Shown piece by piece: positions 669 to 12,864 of a stretch of DNA of 64,000 nucleotides. The notes beneath the pieces are model-generated. The model was not told the DNA's origin and did not search any database. It saw only the letters and a program-made list of their open reading frames with translations. Within the stretch, counting starts at the first letter, position 1; each line of letters begins with the position of its first letter. Location of the stretch: positions 5,084,001 to 5,148,000 of the forward strand of contig NZ_CP119520.1 of assembly GCF_029223865.1 (NCBI RefSeq), in the 5' to 3' direction. This DNA comes from Telluria mixta. Lineage in GTDB: Bacteria; Pseudomonadota; Gammaproteobacteria; Burkholderiales; Burkholderiaceae_D. Position numbers and translations under genes: made by a program.

Positions 669-893
669 CTAACGATCGTCGCGGCGCATCAGCGCATCGA
701 TGCCGGCCACCGTGCCGGCCATCGCCAGCGCCGCGACGCCGGCGCCGGCCCAGGTGGCGATGCGGTCGCCGTGCGCCCACTCCTGCCACGCCAGCACGGC
801 GGGCATCAGCATCATCGGCGCCGTCATCGCCGTAGCGAGCCAGGCGTGGCGGCGTACGCTCTCAGCCACCGCAGCACCCGCCGCAGCAGCCAC
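669..893 (-). CDS. Small two-helix membrane protein
   Basis: A 74-residue protein with two hydrophobic stretches (about residues 17-36, rich in Met/Leu/Ala, and 47-66) separated by a short polar turn, so a small integral membrane protein. It starts with GTG at 893, with AGGGA a suitable distance upstream, and its first 32 bases overlap the end of the HMA-like gene, indicating translational coupling. It is probably the last gene of the nrdJ-side minus-strand block. No family is recognised. Coupling to the metal-domain gene suggests a joint job, but that is inference. Confidence 0.55.
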   Translation of the reverse strand: MAAAAGAAVAESVRRHAWLATAMTAPMMLMPAVLAWQEWAHGDRIATWAGAGVAALAMAGTVAGIDALMRRDDR

Positions 894-1110
894 CGCTGCG
901 TTCCCTGTTTGCCTCCGCGTAGCCGGCGCCCGTCAGCGCGGCGGTGATGGCCTGCGTCGACGTGGCGCCTTCGTCGAACTCCACGCGCATCTCGCGGCCG
1001 CCCGGTTCGAGGTCGATGCCGCGCACGCCGGGCAGGGTGCACAGGGCGCTCGTGAGGCGTTCGATGTCGGCGAAGGCGAGGGGGGCCGAGAACTGGAAAT
1101 CGTGTTGCAT
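862..1110 (-). CDS. HMA-fold (heavy-metal-associated-like) small protein with Cys-rich tail
   Basis: An 82-residue protein with the beta-alpha-beta-beta-alpha-beta pattern of heavy-metal-associated domains (PGVRGIDLEPGGREMRVEFD, then AITAALTGAGY). AGGAG lies 7 bases before the ATG. The usual MxCxxC metal loop at the start of helix 1 is absent; the N-terminal half has a single Cys in SALCTLPG. Instead the protein ends SGGCCGGCCGG, with two Cys pairs. In classical HMA chaperones the CxxC loop binds Cu(I) or Zn; here any metal would have to be bound by the tail. It sits just downstream of nrdJ on the same strand, and the next gene overlaps its end. Confidence 0.7.
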   Translation of the reverse strand: MQHDFQFSAPLAFADIERLTSALCTLPGVRGIDLEPGGREMRVEFDEGATSTQAITAALTGAGYAEANRERSGGCCGGCCGG

Positions 1111-1150
1111 GATGCTCCTTTTGCGTAGGTCGTTGGTACACCGTCAGAGT

Positions 1151-1169
1151 AGGGCCGGATGCCGGCCCT
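1151..1169. terminator. Perfect hairpin between nrdJ and the HMA-like gene
   Basis: AGGGCCGG and CCGGCCCT form an 8-bp perfect stem with a 3-base loop in the 88-bp gap between the nrdJ stop and the next minus-strand gene. There is no T-run after it on either strand, so it is at best a weak or attenuating terminator, or an mRNA-stabilising hairpin. Confidence 0.35.
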
Positions 1170-1198
1170 GTCCTTGAACCGGTTTCAGGTTTTACGAA

Positions 1199-3664
1199 TC
1201 AGGCGCAGCCGCCCAGGTAGTGGCACGATGTGCAGCGCGTGCAGCCGTCGACCTTGCGCAGCGCGCGCGCACCGCATTCCGGGCATTTCGCGCCCGTCTC
1301 TTCGACCGCCGCCGCCTCGGGCGCCGGTGCTTCCGCCGGGGTGCCGCGTCCCGCAAGCAGGCGATCCAGCGCGTCGGCGGGCACCTGGTTGCCGTAGGCA
1401 TCCAGGAACCCGCGGCGGATCAGGATCCGCTGCAGCATGAACGCGATCGCCGCCACTTCCGAATCGTGGTACACGGGCACCTGCACGCCGTCCGCCCGCG
1501 TCAGGTGGCCGCAGCGCACGGGTCCCTTTTCCCACACGACGGCGCGCATGTCGGCGAGCGCCTTGGCGATGGAGCTGCCGGCGCGCGCGGCCAGCGACAG
1601 CAGGCGCATCGTGGACGTGATCCACTGGTGGCCGTCGCTGCGCTGGTTGGCAGGCATGAAGAATTCGAACGGGCGCTCGATGACGAGGTCGCGCCCGTTC
1701 AGCCTTCCTTCCACGCGCATGAAGCTGATGGTCAGATACACCGTCTTCTTGCCTTCCTGCGTCGTGTATTCGACCTTCGAGGTGACGGATTCCAGTTCGC
1801 CGGCCGGTCGGCTTTCGAAGCGGCGGCGCAGCGGATCGACGTGGTCCGGCACTCCGGCGTCCGCCGCCTCGGCAGGCGGAGGAGGCGCTACGCTCAGCAC
1901 ACTGCCCGTGACGGCGTTCGGCCGGTACGTGGCGAGGCCCTTCAGGCCGGCGCGCCATGCCTCCGTATATAAATCCTTGAAGTCGTCGAACGGGTAGTCG
2001 GCCGGCACGTTGACGGTCTTCGAGATCGCGCCGTCCACGTACGGCTGCACGGCCGCCATCATGCCCAGGTGATCCCGCGCGGACATCTCCAGCGCCGTGA
2101 CGAACTGCGGCGGCAATTCGGATACATCGTGCCCCAGGTGACGGTACAGGCGCCACGCGTGGTCGGCTACTTCGTAGATGCGCGTGCTGTCGTCCGGCAT
2201 GCGCTTCTTGCGCTGGTAGACCCACGAGAACGCGGGCTCGATGCCGTTCGACGCATTGTCCGCGAACGCGAGGGCGATGGTGCCCGTCGGCGCGATCGAC
2301 ATCAGGTGCGAATTGCGGATGCCGTGGCGGGCGATCCGCTCGCGCAGTTCGTCCGGCAGGCGCCGCGCGAACGCGCCGTCCAGGTAGCGCGCCGGGTCGA
2401 ACAGCGGGAACGCGCCTTTTTCGCGCGCCAGGTCCACCGATGCGTCGTAGGCGGTGTCGCGCAGCGCGCGCGTGACGTCGGCGGCGAACGCGCGGCCCTC
2501 GTCGGCGTCGTAGCGCAGGCCCAGCATGACGAGCGCGCTGCCCAGGCCCAGGAAGCCGATGCCGATGCGGCGCTTGTCGCGGCCTTCCGCCGCCTGCTGC
2601 GGCAGCGGCCATTCGGTGGCATCGAGCGCGAGGTCGAGCATGCGCACGCCGACCGCCGTCACTTCGCGGAACGTGTCGAGGTCGAAGAACGCCTCCGGCG
2701 TGAACGGGTGGCGCACGAACTTCGTCAGGTCGAGCGAGCCCAGGTCGCAGCAGCCGTACGGCGGCAGCGGCTGTTCGCCGCACGGGTTGGTGGCGGCCAG
2801 CGTCTCGGCGTAGTACAGGTTGTTCTCGCCGTTGATGCGGTCCAGGAACAGCACGCCCGGCTCCGCATGGTCGTAGGTGGAGCGGATCACCTTGTCCCAC
2901 AAGTCGCGCGCGCGGACCGTGCGGTAGACCCAGCGGCCGTCCGGGCGTAGATGTGCGCCGTTCGCCTGGTCGTCCGGTCCCGGCTCGGCAAGGTGCGTCA
3001 GCTCGACGGCGCCGTCGTCCAGCACGGCGCGCATGAACGCATCCGTGACGCCGACCGACAGGTTGAAATTGCTGAACGCGCCGCCGTCCTTGGCGGCGAC
3101 GAACGCTTCGATGTCGGGATGGTCGATGCGCAGCACGCCCATCTGGGCGCCGCGGCGTGCACCCGCCGACTCCACCGTGCGGCACGACGCGTCGAACACG
3201 GCCATGTACGACACGGGGCCGGACGCGCGCGACTGCGTGCCTTTCACGAGGCTGCCGGCTGGGCGGATCGCGGAAAAGTCGTAACCGACGCCGCCGCCGC
3301 GCCGCATCGTTTCCGCCGCTTCGGCCACAGCGTCGTAGATGCCGGGCACGGCGCCGTCGCGGCCGCTGATCGCGTCGCCGACGGGCTGCACGAAGCAGTT
3401 CATCAACGTGGCCTTCAGGCCGATGCCGGCGGCGGAGTTGATGCGGCCGGCGGGCACGAAGCCGTGGTCCTGCGCCCACAAGAAGCGCTGCTCCATCTCC
3501 AGGCGCAGCGGCTCGGGTTCGTGCGCGGCCAGCGCGCGGGCCACGCGGGCGCGCACTTGCGCGACGGTCGTCTCGTCGCCTTTCGCGTATTTTTCCCGCA
3601 GTACGTCGGCCGACACGTCCTGCGTCGGCATGGATGCGGCAAAGAGGGATTCGTTGGCGTTCAT
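1199..3664 (-). CDS. nrdJ: Adenosylcobalamin-dependent (class II) ribonucleotide reductase
   Basis: The 821-residue enzyme reduces ribonucleotides to deoxyribonucleotides using a radical from coenzyme B12, so it works with or without oxygen. Family landmarks are visible: NCFVQPVGD (first redox Cys) near residue 75, [17 protein letters not shown] (active-site Asn-x-Cys-x-Glu) near 300, the phosphate-binding PTGTIAL near 475, and a C-terminal Cys-rich tail CPECG...CTRCTSC for re-reduction or metal binding. The start at MNANESLF is chosen because GAGG precedes it; an upstream extension in the same frame runs antisense-like through the next gene and is not protein-like. A Crp/Fnr-type palindrome is centred 62.5 bp upstream. 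Its position beside ubiTUV suggests use under oxygen limitation. Confidence 0.95.
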
Positions 3665-3718
3665 GTCATCCTCGGTGATAGTCAGGCGTCCACTATCCCC
3701 GAGGCGCGCCGGCCCCGC

Positions 3719-3734
3719 CTTAAACTGGTTGAAG
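3719..3734 (-). promoter_or_regulatory. Dnr/FNR-type palindrome upstream of nrdJ
   Basis: CTTAAACTGGTTGAAG (plus strand) is an imperfect palindrome; on the minus strand the core reads TTCAA-N4-TTTAA, resembling the NNR/Dnr/FNR class (TTnAn-N4-nTnAA). Its centre is 62.5 bp before the nrdJ ATG, and a GATAGT element lies where a -10 box would be for an activator at -41.5. It overlaps the TAA stop of the upstream gene. It matches the ubiU site closely in sequence and exactly in spacing. Confidence 0.6.
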
Positions 3735-4118
3735 CATTCGGCGTTCCGCTGCCAGCAGGGCCACGTCGTCCGCCACCTCGCGCGCGACGGTAGCCGCTTC
3801 GGCCGCGTCGAACTGCATGTGATAGCGCTTGCGCACGCCGTGTTCCGCCAGCTGGACGTGCAGGTCCGGCGTGACGCCATGCCGCGCGAGGCAGTTGCGC
3901 ACGCATTCGAGCGGACAGCCGTCGACGGCGACGACGGGCCGGCCCGACTTCGCGAGCTTGACGAGCGACGGCACGTCGCCGCCCACGCCGGCAATGCACG
4001 ACATCTCGGCGACGTCGGCGCGGTCGAGTTCCAGCGCGATGTGGTTGGCCATCTGCGCCGCGCTGGAACAGCCGGAGCAGGAATAGACGAGGGGGAAAAC
4101 GGTGCGGTCACGGCCCAT
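3720..4118 (-). CDS. DGC-domain putative zinc/metal-binding protein
   Basis: This 132-residue protein has the cysteine pattern of the DGC family (Pfam PF08859): [11 protein letters not shown] near residues 12-22, [10 protein letters not shown] near 40, and [12 protein letters not shown] near 66-77. The family is thought to bind zinc or another metal; its reaction is not established. The gene lies between ubiT (12-base gap) and nrdJ on the same strand, so it is probably transcribed with ubiUVT. Co-location with enzymes that need Fe-S or cobalamin hints at a metal or sulfur-related helper role, which is inference. Confidence 0.85.
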
Positions 4119-4130
4119 GGGTTTCTCCTT

Positions 4131-4532
4131 TCAACGGTCGATGGCGTCCAGCGTATTCTTGATGAGCAGTCCCAGCTCCGTATCGCCTTCCATCACGAGG
4201 CGCCGGCTGAAGAACAGCGTGTCCGGGTCCTCGCGGCGCGTGGCCAGCAGGCCCAGGTCGTACAGGGTTGCGCCGATGACGACGTCCGGTTCCGTCTTCG
4301 ATGTGACGGCCGCGAACGAGCGCCCGTTCCACGCGACGTCGAAGGCGACACCCGCGTCCAGCACGGCCAGGCGCAGTCGCTTGCGCAGCAGTTGCGCGCG
4401 CACGTCCGCGTCCAGGTGGGGCTTCAAACCGGCGTTCAGGCCTGCCGCGAACAGCCAGGCGCCGGGCCGGCCGGGCAACCGGGACAGGACGTGGCGGACG
4501 GGCGCCGGCAGGCGGTAGGGGGAAGCGTTCAT
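4131..4532 (-). CDS. ubiT: UbiT, SCP2-domain lipid-binding factor for anaerobic ubiquinone synthesis
   Basis: A 133-residue protein with a single SCP2-type lipid-binding domain (about residues 25-125; [12 protein letters not shown] and [12 protein letters not shown] are typical). UbiT is an accessory protein for oxygen-independent ubiquinone synthesis and is thought to bind the isoprenoid quinone intermediates. The ATG overlaps the ubiV stop in an ATGA, giving tight coupling; the order ubiU-ubiV-ubiT is the conserved one. The closest alternative name is YhbT-like SCP2 protein. Confidence 0.9.
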
Positions 4533-5416
4533 GCGGCGACCTCCTCGAGGCCGGGTCGGCCATGCCAGAAACCGTTGCACGCGGCGCCGGGCATCCACGC
4601 GCCCATGCGCTCGCGCGCGGCGGCGCCGGACAGCGACCCCGTCAGCACGCCGTGCACGCTGGCGACGATGTCCGCCATGTGGGCCGACTGCGGGCTGAGA
4701 CGCACGATGCCCACGCCCAGAGCGCGCATGGCGGGCAGCGCGTCGACGAGGTTGTAGACCTTCGCGGACTGGGTCTGGATGCCGTTCAGCACGAGGAACG
4801 GTTTTCCCTCCTGCGTGTTCAGCACGAGGCCGTCCGGATGTTCCAGGCAGCTGAAGCGGCAATCGTCCTTGGGCAGGTTGCGGTGGCGCGCGGTGAAGCA
4901 GCGGGCGGAAAACGCGAGCGGCATGCGGCCGTAGGCGAATACCTCGGTCTCCACGCCGGCCGGCAGGTCGGACTGCATGGCGGCGAGGCTCGCGGACGGC
5001 ATCTCCAGCGGCGCGACCCAGCGCACGGCGCCGGCGCGGGCGAGCAGGGCGAGCGTGGCTGGGTTGTACACGTTCAGGTGCGGTCCCGCGACGAACGGGC
5101 GGCCGTCGACACAGTGGACGGCCCCCATGTCGTTGGCCTCCACGAGGAAGCGCCCGTTGGCGGCGACGCGGCGCAGGGCGGAGAGGTCGGACGGCGATTC
5201 GATCAGGACCTGGGTCGACAGCACGACTTCCTTGCCGGCGGCGGCCAGGCGGTCGGCCAGCGTGAGCCAGTCGGAGGGGCGCAATTCGTGCCGGCGCGAA
5301 CACACGGTTTCGCCGAGGTAGACGATGTCGACGGGCGTCTCCGCCATCGCATCGTAGAACGCGAACACGGTGTCGCGCGGCCAGTAGTATTGCAGGGGCC
5401 CGAGGGCAATCTTCAT
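4529..5416 (-). CDS. ubiV: UbiV, Fe-S subunit of oxygen-independent ubiquinone hydroxylase
   Basis: A 295-residue member of peptidase family U32. UbiV works as a heterodimer with UbiU to hydroxylate ubiquinone precursors without O2. The four cysteines known to hold a 4Fe-4S cluster are present with the family spacing: GETVCSRRHE in the N-terminal part and RCFTARHRNLPKDDCRFSC in the second half (C-x12-C-x3-C). The chosen start, MKIALGPLQYYWPR, matches the conserved N-terminus; an in-frame ATG eight codons upstream (5440) overlaps the ubiU stop as ATGA and cannot be excluded. Confidence 0.93.
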   Translation of the reverse strand: MKIALGPLQYYWPRDTVFAFYDAMAETPVDIVYLGETVCSRRHELRPSDWLTLADRLAAAGKEVVLSTQVLIESPSDLSALRRVAANGRFLVEANDMGAVHCVDGRPFVAGPHLNVYNPATLALLARAGAVRWVAPLEMPSASLAAMQSDLPAGVETEVFAYGRMPLAFSARCFTARHRNLPKDDCRFSCLEHPDGLVLNTQEGKPFLVLNGIQTQSAKVYNLVDALPAMRALGVGIVRLSPQSAHMADIVASVHGVLTGSLSGAAARERMGAWMPGAACNGFWHGRPGLEEVAA

Positions 5417-5436
5417 GATGGTCTTTCGGTACGAAG

Positions 5437-6447
5437 TCATTTCCAGGGGCGGTGGTAGGCGCCCAGCGTGTGCTGGCTGCCTTCGGCGACGTTGTCCAGG
5501 CTCGTCATCCACTCGCGCCGGACCGTGTAGCGGCCGTGTTCCGCGAGGCAGGCGTCGATGGCGGCACGCCACACCTTCGTGACCTGGGCCACGTACGCGG
5601 GGCTGCGCTGGCGGCCTTCGATCTTGACGGCGCGCGCGCCCGCCGCCACGAGCTTCGGCAGGATCTCGAGCGTGTTCAGGCTCGCGGGCTCCTCGATCGC
5701 GTAATAGGTCTCGCCGTCCACGTCGAAGCGGCCCTTGCACAGGGTGGGGTAGCCGGCCTGCTCGCCGTCGCCGTAGCGGTCGATGAGGACGTCGTACAGG
5801 CGCGCCTCCAGCGCGCGCGGCGTCCGCGTCCAGCGCACGGCCTTCGCGGGCGAGCACACGCCGTGTGTATTGGGCGATTCGCCGGTGGCGTACGAGGACA
5901 GCTGGCAGCGGCCCTCGGCCATCACGCACAGGCTGCCGAAGCCGAACACTTCGATCTCGACGGGCGAATGCTCGATGACTTTTTCCGCCTGGGCCAACGA
6001 CAGCACCCGCGGCAGCACGGCGCGCGCGATGCCGAAGTGGCGGTGGTAGAAGGCGATGGCGTCGATGTTCGTCGCCGAGCCCTGCACGGACAGGTGCAGC
6101 CGCAGCTGGGAATGCACGCGCGCCGCGTATTCCATCAGGCCCGGGTCGGCGAGGATCACGGCGTCGATGCCGTGCGTGGCGGCGCGGTCGAGGGCGCGGC
6201 GCCAGGGACCGTCGCCGCCCGGCTGCGGGTAGGTGTTCAGCGCGAGGAAGACCTTGCGGTTGCGGTCGTGGGCATAGCGGATGCCTTCGATGATGGCGTC
6301 TTCGGAGAAGTTCAGGCCGGCGAAGTTGCGCGCATTGGTCGCGTCGCGAAAGCCGAGGTAGACGCAGTCGGCGCCGTGGTCGATGGCGGCCTTGAGGGCC
6401 GGCAGGCTGCCGGCGGGACAAACGAGTTCGAGGGAGGGAGAGGTCAT
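5437..6447 (-). CDS. ubiU: UbiU, Fe-S subunit of oxygen-independent ubiquinone hydroxylase
   Basis: A 336-residue U32-family protein. Starting with MTSPSLELVCPAGSLPALK, it carries the UbiU cluster cysteines in SLCVMAEGRC, NTHGVC and LCKGRF, with the same 7-, 17- and about 40-residue separations described for E. coli UbiU. With UbiV it forms the O2-independent hydroxylase that uses prephenate-derived hydroxyl groups in other bacteria. It is the first gene of ubiU-ubiV-ubiT-DGC. GAGGGAG-like sequence is inside the coding start rather than before it. A Crp/Fnr-type palindrome is centred 62.5 bp upstream, so anaerobic or NO induction is likely. Confidence 0.94.
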   Translation of the reverse strand: MTSPSLELVCPAGSLPALKAAIDHGADCVYLGFRDATNARNFAGLNFSEDAIIEGIRYAHDRNRKVFLALNTYPQPGGDGPWRRALDRAATHGIDAVILADPGLMEYAARVHSQLRLHLSVQGSATNIDAIAFYHRHFGIARAVLPRVLSLAQAEKVIEHSPVEIEVFGFGSLCVMAEGRCQLSSYATGESPNTHGVCSPAKAVRWTRTPRALEARLYDVLIDRYGDGEQAGYPTLCKGRFDVDGETYYAIEEPASLNTLEILPKLVAAGARAVKIEGRQRSPAYVAQVTKVWRAAIDACLAEHGRYTVRREWMTSLDNVAEGSQHTLGAYHRPWK

Positions 6448-6501
6448 GGCGGGCGGGTGAACGGTAACGCAGGAAGCATAGTTACGAGCGACCCACGCCG
6501 C

Positions 6502-6517
6502 CTTAAACGAGGTTAAG
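6502..6517 (-). promoter_or_regulatory. Dnr/FNR-type palindrome upstream of ubiU
   Basis: CTTAAACGAGGTTAAG is a near-perfect palindrome (outer five bases CTTAA/TTAAG perfect). On the minus strand the core is TTAAC-N4-TTTAA, close to the NNR/Dnr consensus left half TTAAC. Its centre is 62.5 bp before the ubiU ATG and a TAACTA element follows at -10 spacing. It overlaps the TAA stop of the preceding gene, exactly as the nrdJ site does. Confidence 0.65.
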
Positions 6518-6905
6518 CAAATCGCACGGCGTGTCCGTTCGGGTCGAACGCGAGGAAGCGCTCGATGGCGCCGCGGTGCACGGCGTCGATCATCATCTTG
6601 AGGCCGCGGTCGATGCCGGACGCCTGCTGTTCCCCAGCCAGCGCGGCGACGAGGACCATGTCCCACGGCTGGCCCGTCGCGCGCGACTCGTCGGCCAGCA
6701 TCGTGAAATCCGCGAGCTCGTCGAGCCCCTTGTCGACGCACATCACGGGAGACAATGCGCCGCCGCGGCCTTCCTCGAAGCGGCGCGCCTGGCCCGGCGT
6801 ATGCGTCTGCGGCAGTTCGGCGACCGCAAAGACGAACAGCAGGCGCTGCGCCTCCGGCTGGGCGCGCGCGGCGGTGAGGAAATCGGAGAAATTCGAGAGT
6901 TGCAT
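6513..6905 (-). CDS. Conserved small protein linked to the ubiUVT/nrdJ cluster (function unknown)
   Basis: A soluble 130-residue protein with no signal peptide or membrane segment, beginning MQLSNFSDFLTAARAQPEAQRLLFVF. In relatives, small proteins like this next to ubiU are often labelled ribonucleotide reductase subunit alpha, but none of the catalytic motifs of that enzyme is present, so the label should not be trusted. It lies upstream of ubiU on the same strand and divergent from the Dnr-type regulator gene, sharing a 127-bp intergenic region with it. A role alongside the anaerobic enzymes is inferred from position only. Confidence 0.75.
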   Translation of the reverse strand: MQLSNFSDFLTAARAQPEAQRLLFVFAVAELPQTHTPGQARRFEEGRGGALSPVMCVDKGLDELADFTMLADESRATGQPWDMVLVAALAGEQQASGIDRGLKMMIDAVHRGAIERFLAFDPNGHAVRFA

Positions 6906-6988: not shown

Positions 6989-7005
6989 CTAGTCATTCCG
7001 GACTA
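6989..7005 (+). promoter_or_regulatory. CTAGTCA motif / TAGTC-GACTA inverted repeat before dnr
   Basis: The intergenic region of the regulator gene has CTAGTCATTCCGG, followed directly so that TAGTC and GACTA form an inverted repeat with a 6-base spacer. A very similar 13-mer (CTAGTCACTTTGG) occurs before nnrS at 21805. The start codon at 7033 is 28 bp downstream. The binding protein is unknown; a response regulator or alternative promoter element are possibilities. Confidence 0.35.
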
Positions 7006-7032: not shown

Positions 7033-7737
7033 ATGGCGGCATCCCGACTATTTCCTCCCGCGACCGTGGCCACCATCGATCCCTGCACCTTCCTGCGCCG
7101 CCTGCCGCTGTTTTCCGACCTCGGCGAGGACGAGCTGCGCGCCGTCGGCGCGGCCGCCACCGAGCAGCACGTCGACCGCGGCCGCGCCATCGTCGAGCGG
7201 GGCGACCCGTGCGAGGGGTTTCATTCGATCCTGTACGGCCAGGTCAAGCTGGCCTTCATCTCGCCGCAGGGCCAGGAAAAAGTCATCGAGATCCTCGGTC
7301 CCGGCAAGACGTTCGGCGAAGCCGTCATGTTCATGGACAAGCCGTACTTCGTGACGGCGACGGCGCTGGAAGACTGCCTGCTGCTGCACGTCCGCAAGGA
7401 AGCCATCTTCGCCGAGCTGGAACGGAGTCCGGCCTTCGCCCGCCGCATGCTGGCCGGGATGAGCCGGCGCCTGCACGGCCTCGTGGCGGACGTGGAGTCG
7501 TACACCCTGCACACGGGCGGCCAGCGCGTCGTCGGTTACCTGCTGAAGGATGCGCCGGAATCCGGCGCGACCGTGCGGCTGTCCGTCAGCAAGCGCCTCG
7601 TCGCGTCGCGCCTGAACATCACGCCCGAGTATTTTTCGCGCGTGCTGAACGATCTCACGCGGCGCGAACTCGTGCGCGTGGACGGCCGCGACATTGCGAT
7701 CCTGAACGCGGACGGCCTGCGCGCCTACGAGGGATAA
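7033..7737 (+). CDS. dnr: Dnr-type Crp/Fnr family transcription regulator
   Basis: A 234-residue regulator with an N-terminal cyclic-nucleotide-like sensor domain (about 20-130), a dimer helix (RMLAGMSRRLHGLV) and a C-terminal helix-turn-helix (VSKRLVASRLNITPEYFSRVLNDL). The recognition helix has ExxSR, as in FNR/DNR, which reads TTGAT-like half-sites. The segment GQEKVIEILGPGKTFGEAVMFMDKP strongly resembles P. aeruginosa DNR. The FNR iron-sulfur cysteine cluster is absent (only three scattered Cys), so an NO/heme-type sensor is more likely than an oxygen-labile cluster. ATG 7033 lacks a clear ribosome site; GTG at 7066 is an alternative start. Its 3' end overlaps ackA by 13 bp on the other strand. 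Confidence 0.88.
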   Translation: MAASRLFPPATVATIDPCTFLRRLPLFSDLGEDELRAVGAAATEQHVDRGRAIVERGDPCEGFHSILYGQVKLAFISPQGQEKVIEILGPGKTFGEAVMFMDKPYFVTATALEDCLLLHVRKEAIFAELERSPAFARRMLAGMSRRLHGLVADVESYTLHTGGQRVVGYLLKDAPESGATVRLSVSKRLVASRLNITPEYFSRVLNDLTRRELVRVDGRDIAILNADGLRAYEG

Positions 7738-11033: not shown

Positions 11034-12800
11034 TCAGCGTTCGAGCACGTAGCGGCCGGGGGCCGGCTCGAGGAGCGCGTAGCCGGCCGCGCCCGGCGCC
11101 GGCGGTGCGGTGCGGCCGGTGCTGCCAGCCTCCAGCCAGTCGACCCAGGCAGGCCACCACGAGCCGTCTCGCGCGGGCGTGGCGGCAACCCACTCGTCCG
11201 GCGCCAGGTACCGGTCGCCGTCGGTGCGGCGGGCGAGGCGGAAATGGCGCCCCCGGTGGCCCGGTTCGCTGACGATGCCCGCGTTGTGGCCGCCGCTCGT
11301 GAGGACGAAGGTCACGTCGGCGTCGGCGACGAGGTTGATCTTGTAGACGGACTTCCACGGCGCCACGTGGTCCGTCTCGGTGGCGACGACGAACAGCGGC
11401 GCGCGGATGTCGGCCAGCGCGACGGGCCTGCCGTCGATGTGGTACCGCCCTTCGAACAGGTCGTTCTTCAGGAACAGCCGGCGCAAGTACTCGCTGTGCA
11501 TCCGGTAGGGCATGCGCGTGGCGTCCGCGTTCCACGCCATCAAATCGTTCATCGGCGGACGCTGGCCGAGCAGGTAGTCGTTGACGATGCGCGACCATAC
11601 GAGGTCGTTGGAGCGCAGCAGCTGGAAGGCGCCGGCCATCTGGCGCGTCTGCAGGTAGCCCTGGCGCCACATGATGTCTTCCAAAAAATTCAGTTCGCTG
11701 TCGTCGATGAACAGCGAGAGTTCGCCCGCCTCCGTGAAATCCGTCTGGGCGGCGAACAGCGTCAGCGAGCGCAGGCGCTCGTCGCGCCGGCCGGCCAGGT
11801 ACGCGGCGGCGATGGCGAGCAAGGTCCCGCCCAGGCAATAGCCGACGGCATGCACGCGCCGGTCCGGGACGATCGCGTTCACGGCGTCGAGCGCCGCGAG
11901 CACGCCCTGGCGCAGGTAGTCGTCCATGCCCAGGTCGCGGTCTTCCTCGCCCGGGTTGTGCCACGAGATCATGAAGACCGTGTGGCCCCGGCCGACGAGG
12001 TAGTTCACGAGCGAGTTACGGGGCGACAGGTCGAGGATGTAGTATTTCATGATCCATGCCGGCACGATCAGCACGGGTTCCGCGTGCACGTCCGGTGTCG
12101 CGGGCGCGTACTGGATCAGCTCCATCAGCCGGTTGCGCAGCACGACGCGGCCGGGCGTGACGGCGACCTGGCGGCCCGGCACGAAGTCCTCGGCGCCGGC
12201 CGGCGGACAGTCCGTCAGCATGCGCCAGCAGTCGTCCGCTAGGTAGCCCATCCCTTTCGCGAAGTTCATGCCGCCCTGTTGCGCGGTCGCCTGCAGCACC
12301 TCCGGGTTCGTCGCGATGAAATTCACGGGCGACATCATGTCCAGCAACTGGCGCGCGACGAACGCCACCACCTGCTCATGGTGCGGCGCGACGCCGCCGA
12401 TGCCGGTCGTGACGTTGTGCCACCACTGCTGGTTGAGGAGGAAGCCCTGCTGGATCACGTTGAAAGGCCAGCGCTGCCAGGCCTCGCCGTCGAAGCGGCG
12501 GTCTTGCGGCAGCGGTTCGATGCAGCGTGCCACCTGTCCGACCGCGGCGCGCGCCGCGTAGTCGCCGAAGCGGCCGGCCTTGCGCAAGGCCTTGTCACAC
12601 AGCCTGGCCCATTTGCCGGGCGACTGGGCCAGGTGCAGGCTCCAGTCCACCCACGCGAGCGCCAGCGCGGCGGGCGAGATGCCGGATGTCACGCGGCCGA
12701 GCGCCGCATGCAGCATGCGGTCGGTCACGGTGGGCGGTTCGATGTCGTCCCAGGGATCGGCGGACGGGGGAATGGGGGCATGCGGGTTGAATTTGTCCAT
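11034..12800 (-). CDS. phaC: Polyhydroxyalkanoate (PHB) synthase
   Basis: A 588-residue alpha/beta hydrolase-type polymerase that joins (R)-3-hydroxyacyl-CoA units into storage polyester. The lipase-like box GYCLGGTLL carries the nucleophile Cys (near residue 340), with the catalytic Asp in ATETDHVAPW and His in TSGGHNAGI. The N-terminal PhaC domain (about 90-260, MSPVNFIATNPEVL) is complete, and the length fits class I. It heads phaC-fabI-pta-ackA. A perfect FNR box is centred 42.5 bp before its ATG. AAGGTGG 7-13 bases upstream could serve as ribosome site. Anaerobic induction is expected. Confidence 0.93.
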   Translation of the reverse strand: MDKFNPHAPIPPSADPWDDIEPPTVTDRMLHAALGRVTSGISPAALALAWVDWSLHLAQSPGKWARLCDKALRKAGRFGDYAARAAVGQVARCIEPLPQDRRFDGEAWQRWPFNVIQQGFLLNQQWWHNVTTGIGGVAPHHEQVVAFVARQLLDMMSPVNFIATNPEVLQATAQQGGMNFAKGMGYLADDCWRMLTDCPPAGAEDFVPGRQVAVTPGRVVLRNRLMELIQYAPATPDVHAEPVLIVPAWIMKYYILDLSPRNSLVNYLVGRGHTVFMISWHNPGEEDRDLGMDDYLRQGVLAALDAVNAIVPDRRVHAVGYCLGGTLLAIAAAYLAGRRDERLRSLTLFAAQTDFTEAGELSLFIDDSELNFLEDIMWRQGYLQTRQMAGAFQLLRSNDLVWSRIVNDYLLGQRPPMNDLMAWNADATRMPYRMHSEYLRRLFLKNDLFEGRYHIDGRPVALADIRAPLFVVATETDHVAPWKSVYKINLVADADVTFVLTSGGHNAGIVSEPGHRGRHFRLARRTDGDRYLAPDEWVAATPARDGSWWPAWVDWLEAGSTGRTAPPAPGAAGYALLEPAPGRYVLER

Positions 12801-12835
12801 GCGCCCACCTTACCGGTTCGATCGATTTCAGATCA

Positions 12836-12849
12836 TTGATCTAAATCAA
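12836..12849 (-). promoter_or_regulatory. Perfect FNR/Anr box upstream of phaC
   Basis: TTGATCTAAATCAA matches the FNR consensus TTGAT-N4-ATCAA at all ten defined positions. It is centred 42.5 bp before the phaC ATG and lies just beyond the 3' end of the L,D-transpeptidase gene. If it acts as a class II site (-41.5), transcription would start within about a base of the ATG. Confidence 0.8.
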
Positions 12850-12864
12850 AATCTTGAAGCATCG

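Follow-up and report, generated by a model that had tools for sequence, protein, structure and literature searches.

The window analysed here, a 64,000-nucleotide stretch of Telluria mixta contig NZ_CP119520.1 (all positions are window-based), carries on its minus strand the genes ubiU, ubiV, ubiT and a DGC-domain gene, followed by nrdJ, with one palindromic box upstream of ubiU and another upstream of nrdJ. The ubiU gene (5437–6447, minus strand; NCBIfam NF047963, 548 bits against a cut-off of 440) belongs to O2-independent ubiquinone biosynthesis, and nrdJ (1199–3664, minus strand; NCBIfam TIGR02504, 573 bits against a cut-off of 400; Pfam PF02867) encodes an adenosylcobalamin-dependent (class II) ribonucleotide reductase. 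A gene for a Crp/Fnr-family regulator of the Dnr lineage (7033–7737, plus strand; recognition helix PEYFSRVL) points outward from the ubiU–nrdJ block. On the minus strand the boxes read CTTCAACCAGTTTAAG at nrdJ (3719–3734) and CTTAACCTCGTTTAAG at ubiU (6502–6517); the plus-strand letters are CTTAAACTGGTTGAAG and CTTAAACGAGGTTAAG, respectively. Each box contains the TAA stop codon of the gene upstream of it, that of the DGC-domain gene at 3720–3722 and that of a 130-residue protein gene at 6513–6515, and each is followed on the minus strand by GGCGG and, 21 nt after the box, by a -10-like hexamer (GATAGT at 3692–3697 for nrdJ and TATGCT at 6475–6480 for ubiU, both minus strand). The distance from each box centre (3726.5 and 6509.5) to the A of the ATG on the minus strand, at 3664 for nrdJ and at 6447 for ubiU, is 62.5 bp. 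Direct reading thus confirms the original prediction in its description of near-identical palindromes, their coordinates, the TAA overlaps, GGCGG and the -10-like hexamers.

A set of 62 same-genus genomes, of which 21 carry a true UbiU (at least 74% identity), served to compare the upstream regions of ubiU and nrdJ; each box was scored by its matches at 12 fixed positions. With the loci oriented, the ubiU box scored at least 10 in 20 of the 21 ubiU genomes and at least 11 in 17; the sole exception, G046, has a site of the type TTGAC-N4-GTCAA, CTTGACCTGGGTCAAT (TTGACCTGGGTCAA). The nrdJ box was found in 19 of 21 loci examined from genomes with an orthologue of the 7033 regulator (at least 55% identity), followed by GATAGT or a near form of it, and in none of nine loci from regulator-negative genomes, where the best scores were 7 to 9, the start codons of three were unsure and 12 further listed genomes with nrdJ stand outside the count. 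The sites were first chosen by the box pattern and then rechecked with a scorer that ignored positions 0, 3, 5 and 6 and that chose the same site in 20 of 21 ubiU loci and 19 of 21 nrdJ loci; the differences were two one-base register shifts and G004, which is without a box. The nrdJ box of Telluria mixta covers the C-terminal codons of the DGC gene and its stop (LQPV-stop), and chance or coding constraint might be held to have produced it. We find this scarcely credible, since a similar box stands ahead of ubiU in a different gene context, the letters at nrdJ are different in more distant members of the genus although the -10 spacing stays the same, and the ubiU boxes are not reproduced by shuffling: a score of at least 10 arose in 4 of 4200 dinucleotide shuffles of the 21 ubiU upstream regions and a score of 11 in none.

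The conserved quantity is the distance of 21–22 nt from the box to a TATAGT/GATAGT-like -10 hexamer, which is class II geometry. It is 21 nt in 15 of 21 ubiU promoters and 22 nt in the other six, and 21 nt in 18 of 19 nrdJ promoters and 22 nt in one (G014), which would place the operator at about -41.5, the position expected at a class II Crp/Fnr-dependent promoter. The spacing of 62.5 bp to the ATG, which had been put forward as a shared feature, holds at both promoters of the window and is a property of the closest relatives only: it is seen in 7 of 21 ubiU and 5 of 19 nrdJ promoters, and the distance ranges from 44 to 134 bp at ubiU, measured to the in-frame ATG that lies farthest upstream, and from 62 to 93 bp at nrdJ. 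The comparison of relatives, which the original prediction had proposed, therefore finds the palindromes kept and the distance to the start codon not, and its class II Crp/Fnr-type site gains comparative support from the spacing to the -10 hexamer. The direction of control is unreadable from sequence, and the regulator might bind the boxes as a repressor or an aerobic modulator, the class II position being coincidental. Such a box-to-hexamer spacing is typical of activator-dependent promoters of the Crp/Fnr family, and its near-invariance fits promoters of that kind. DNR and NnrR are moreover described as activators (PMC1274295), and we consider repression or aerobic modulation highly improbable.

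The boxes had been called twins, which is an undercount. A scan for the box together with the -10 hexamer found a third site, CTGAAACCGGTTCAAG (1173–1188, minus strand), with TACTCT as the -10-like hexamer (1146–1151, minus strand), positioned after nrdJ and before the gene for an 82-residue HMA-like protein with a Cys-rich tail (862–1110, minus strand; named from the sequence alone). Of 21 same-genus loci, 12 have after nrdJ a box that matches at least 10 of the 12 positions and is followed at exactly 21 nt by TAnnnT, and the downstream frame was an HMA-like-type gene in all seven loci where it was read. Searched alone with one mismatch across the whole 7.44-Mb genome, the box occurs at 26 places and its reversed pattern at 25, so that it does not exceed background, and a genome-wide regulon drawn from the box alone was rejected on this count; the other two exact matches to the box alone lie inside reading frames read as TatD-like and GGDEF. 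Box plus -10 hexamer, with at most two mismatches, occurs at eight places in the same genome against three for the control. Three of the eight are nrdJ, ubiU and 1146–1188, one is a backward reading of the nrdJ box, and the remaining four lie elsewhere. Across the 62 genomes, and with at most one mismatch, the combination is found at 42 places against eight for the reversed pattern. The 21 exact matches comprise 14 at nrdJ, six at ubiU and one in a GGDEF-like reading frame; the 21 with one mismatch comprise six at ubiU, four at nrdJ, one nrdJ box read backwards, three before a pta-like gene and seven elsewhere. The combination is thus nearly private to the nrdJ and ubiU promoters. The box-like site there is CTTAAACCAGATTAAG; the pta-like gene behind it was checked by tblastn in G035 and G005 and identified by likeness only in G059, and it is a possible extra target of the regulator in these genomes.

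The protein encoded at 7033–7737 has the cNMP-binding and HTH_Crp domains of the Crp/Fnr superfamily, with Pfam PF00027 and PF13545 both over their cut-offs. Its best solved relative is DNR (PDB entry 3dkw; E = 2e-35, the next distinct sequence being at 3e-25), and it has no N-terminal Cys set of the kind that forms the FNR cluster. Of 29 aligned regulator homologues, 28 retain one Cys in a G-x-x-C-x-G segment, and this residue may matter for sensing. Orthologues are present in 25 of the 62 genomes, comprising all 21 with ubiU and four of the 41 without it (Fisher p = 7e-13, uncorrected for phylogeny). In the wider family a homologue (E of 1e-50 or better) was found in 104 of 392 sampled genomes, and outside the genus 76 of 79 genomes with such a homologue also have ubiU. 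The gene narG accompanies the regulator in 20 of 25 regulator-positive genomes and occurs in one of 37 negative ones; nirK is found in nine of 25 and none of 37, respectively, and adjoins the regulator in four. The regulator thus shows the linkage to denitrification or nitrate respiration that characterizes DNR; Telluria mixta itself has narG and gives no nirK match.

The genome's true FNR is the obvious competitor for these promoters, which would then be degenerate FNR (Anr-type) sites. Of the 62 genomes, 61 have a match to the FNR model, and in 54 it exceeds the curated cut-off; ubiUV is activated by Fnr in Escherichia coli (PMC10470549), the ubiU sites of other genera are of a TTGAT/C type readable by FNR, and the G of TTGA is retained in 19 of 46 same-genus half-sites. 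Because FNR is so nearly universal, however, FNR alone does not account for a pattern in which ubiU and the box occur only alongside the Dnr-lineage regulator. Position 5 of the half-site, moreover, is mostly A, neither T nor C, and an FNR-like site, TTGATNNNNATCAA, stands in the same window at 12835–12850, so that the code of FNR itself looks unchanged. As the half-site is mostly CTTRAAC rather than CTTGAT/C, we would expect FNR to have little affinity for these promoters, and we regard control by FNR as unlikely.

Judged by sequence comparison, the boxes are genuine and conserved operators of the class II type, two and probably three in number; they most likely serve the adjacent Dnr-lineage activator and have a derived half-site in the genus. 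We put at about three in four the probability that they are the operators of the 7033–7737 protein, a Crp/Fnr-family activator of the Dnr lineage without an FNR-type Cys cluster, and that it acts by class II activation on ubiUVT with the DGC gene, on nrdJ and probably on the HMA-like gene. The earlier proposal that one regulator, plausibly the 7033 protein, serves both nrdJ and ubiU is supported in this respect by the co-occurrence of box, ubiU and regulator. At a promoter with a TATAGT-like -10 hexamer, a dimer bound about 41.5–42.5 bp before the start of transcription would be in contact with RNA polymerase, and the target genes would be switched on when O2 is absent and/or nitrogen oxides are respired. 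Binding by the 7033 protein, activation rather than repression, and nitric oxide as the signal (by descent from DNR) are steps that we infer.

Several observations weigh against this assignment. Three genomes (G010, G020 and G059) have the regulator without ubiU, and their nrdJ is without the box; the nrdJ box has been lost in G004 and G025; and no box precedes nirK in the four cases where it is linked to the regulator, although the true nirK starts are unmapped. The regulator-negative nrdJ genes may also be mainly the other nrdJ paralogue, which would weaken the contrast between regulator-positive and regulator-negative loci. Candidates for further targets were set aside. The nirK gene offered nothing convincing in the four linked cases. 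Second nrdJ copies occur in nine regulator-positive genomes, and all four that were examined are without the box; this may reflect a division of labour between the copies. Autoregulation was rejected, as no CTTRAAC-type box with a -10 hexamer lies within 350 bp before the regulator gene in the 25 genomes. An FNR-like site is found upstream of the regulator gene in six of the 25 (G014, G035, G059, G005, G020 and G010; not Telluria mixta), which suggests that a cascade from FNR to the regulator, as for Anr and Dnr, may operate in those six genomes only.

The half-sites were predicted to differ from the canonical FNR half-site TTGAT, which they do, and to have a Dnr/NNR specificity, which does not hold as published: the betaproteobacterial DNR consensus is CTTGATnnnnATCAAG and the alphaproteobacterial NnrR consensus is ctTTGcgnnnncgCAAag (PMC1274295), and the spelling here is a derived one. 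The same-genus sites are mostly CTTRAACnnGTTYAAG; set against the DNR-site pattern TTGATnnnnATCAA, the predicted sites mostly have the core TTRAACnnGTTYAA. The residues reported to covary with specificity are 180 and 181 in CRP numbering (PMC1274295). In the family of the 7033 regulator, with the numbering of the recognition helix assigned by eye, 180 and 181 (Pro and Glu) are constant and it is 182 that differs: the helix reads PEYFSR in Telluria mixta, and PEHFSR is the form of most relatives (Tyr in 36 rows, His in 69). His-type relatives in other genera have TTGAT or TTGAC before ubiU; a full TTNA-N6-TNAA site precedes ubiU in 42 of 65 His-type genomes outside the genus, and the 23 without one within 400 bp were left out of the specificity comparison, as were G370, three genomes without ubiU, G234 (in which nrdJ begins at the contig edge) and, at nrdJ, G004 and G025, whose sites are degenerate. 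Position 5 of the half-site (TTGAx) is A in 41 of 46 halves from 23 distinct same-genus Tyr-type sites and in none of 44 halves from 22 distinct His-type sites, and G046, alone in the group in having a His-type regulator, has TTGACCTGGGTCAA at ubiU. The change from His to Tyr at 182 is thus a candidate cause of the change in half-site, with a correlation that is loose.

It is conceivable, and we offer it tentatively, that a Dnr-lineage regulator left the code shared by FNR and Dnr in this way: following His-to-Tyr at CRP position 182 the operators would have relaxed at position 3 and, in the genus, become CTTRAACnnGTTYAAG, insulating a private regulon of ubiUVT, nrdJ and the HMA-like gene from FNR. 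Sites in the wider family lower the odds of this history, A at position 5 being mainly a feature of the genus, and they weigh against the operator assignment as well. In other genera, six distinct Tyr-type sites (nrdJ sites and the ubiU site of G261) show A at position 5 in only 3 of their 12 halves, and a strict rule that Tyr means A at position 5 was rejected for this reason. No such site precedes ubiU in nine of ten Tyr-type genomes outside the genus, the operon context being unexamined; the tenth, G261, has CTTAATCCAGTCTAAG. Their nrdJ sites, present in nine of the ten examined (not in G134), are looser, and G171, the His-type sister of the Tyr clade, has TTRA halves at nrdJ (CTTAAGCGAAATTAAG). 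Tyr, finally, marks a single clade in the family (98/87), so that any covariation within it counts as one event. A looser position 3 fits the Tyr clade better than A at position 5 does. The halves with A at position 3 number 9 of 12 for Tyr-type sites of other genera, 24 of 46 within the genus and 6 of 44 for His-type sites, a contrast slightly favoured by the small bonus that the scorer used for other genera gave to G at position 3 (position 5 is unaffected). Position 3 does not separate the two types cleanly either: G171 has the TTRA halves just mentioned, and the Tyr-type genome G208 has a near-canonical CTTGACGTAAGTTAAG at nrdJ. Two more Tyr-type regulators, from Vitreoscilla filiformis and Eleftheria terrae, are placed outside the Tyr clade in a tree that carries a long-branch warning. 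That of V. filiformis, on pVF1, is divergent from napD, and between the two genes CTTGAACTGCTTCAAG stands beside a canonical CTTGATTGCACTCAAG, a hint of a second origin; E. terrae has only a poor site, CTTGACGTTCCGCAAG. In six His-type genomes of one genus (G183, G244, G204, G139, G262 and G214) a more distant nrdJ homologue is preceded, at 108–308 bp, by a full-core TTGAT/C site and a TAGAAT-like hexamer, and Fnr/Dnr-type control of nrdJ may be more widespread.

Parts of this arrangement are already published elsewhere, namely control of nrdJ by DNR (Pseudomonas aeruginosa nrdJ is induced by Dnr; PMC5645315) and control of ubiUV by Fnr; the half-site, the narrow private regulon and the joint control of ubiU and nrdJ appear to be new. 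Among the papers listed we found none linking ubiU and nrdJ, subscription papers being outside the search. The DNR regulon of betaproteobacteria and Pseudomonas resembles the present one in having a Crp/Fnr protein without the FNR Cys motif, a TTNA-N6-TNAA palindrome and linkage to nitrogen-oxide genes; the betaproteobacterial targets given in that account (PMC1274295) are nir, nor and nos, whereas in the Telluria genus they would be ubiU, nrdJ and probably the HMA-like gene, with mostly CTTRAACnnGTTYAAG as the site. In E. coli, too, ubiUV is activated without oxygen through a Crp/Fnr-type site ahead of the genes, as is predicted here, but there it is Fnr that acts, on TTGAT-type sites, and the searched text of that paper does not mention nrdJ (PMC10470549). 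On pHG1 of Cupriavidus necator H16 a 36% identical Crp/Fnr homologue lies near two U32-family genes and one SCP2 gene (read as ubiUVT-like), a putative zinc-binding protein gene and nnrS; it differs in its helix (PETLSR), and no full-core site lies within 350 bp upstream of the ubiU-like gene.

FNR, Anr and Dnr read almost the same DNA code, which raises the question of how such paralogues escape cross-talk. The genus would be a natural case in which the operators changed and a dedicated neighbouring regulator was retained, and the candidate residue, 182, is neither of the two published determinants. If the proposed history is true, O2-free quinone biosynthesis and B12-dependent deoxynucleotide (dNTP) synthesis would form one dedicated module, and their placement under one adjacent regulator leads to testable predictions for anaerobic growth of the Massilia group.

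The remaining genes of the block are all on the minus strand: ubiV (4529–5416; NCBIfam NF047965, 416 bits against a cut-off of 275), ubiT with an SCP2 domain (4131–4532; NCBIfam NF047962, 127 bits against a cut-off of 47) and the DGC-domain protein gene (3720–4118; Pfam PF08859), the last gene ahead of the nrdJ box. The gene for the 130-residue protein (6513–6905, minus strand) lies between the regulator and ubiU, and in several relatives it is also found between them or adjoining them. Pfam and NCBIfam searches with this protein gave no match; of seven matching plasmid records, five call it 'ribonucleotide reductase subunit alpha'. The FNR-like site at 12835–12850 reads TTTGATTTAGATCAAT on the minus strand and has TAAGGT 21 nt on; the gene after it (11034–12800) looks like one for a polyhydroxyalkanoate (PHA) synthase. 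FNR-type and derived boxes thus lie within 10 kb of each other. Upstream of the regulator start is an inverted repeat, TAGTC-N6-GACTA (6990–7005), which is complete in three of the seven close genomes printed, Telluria mixta included.

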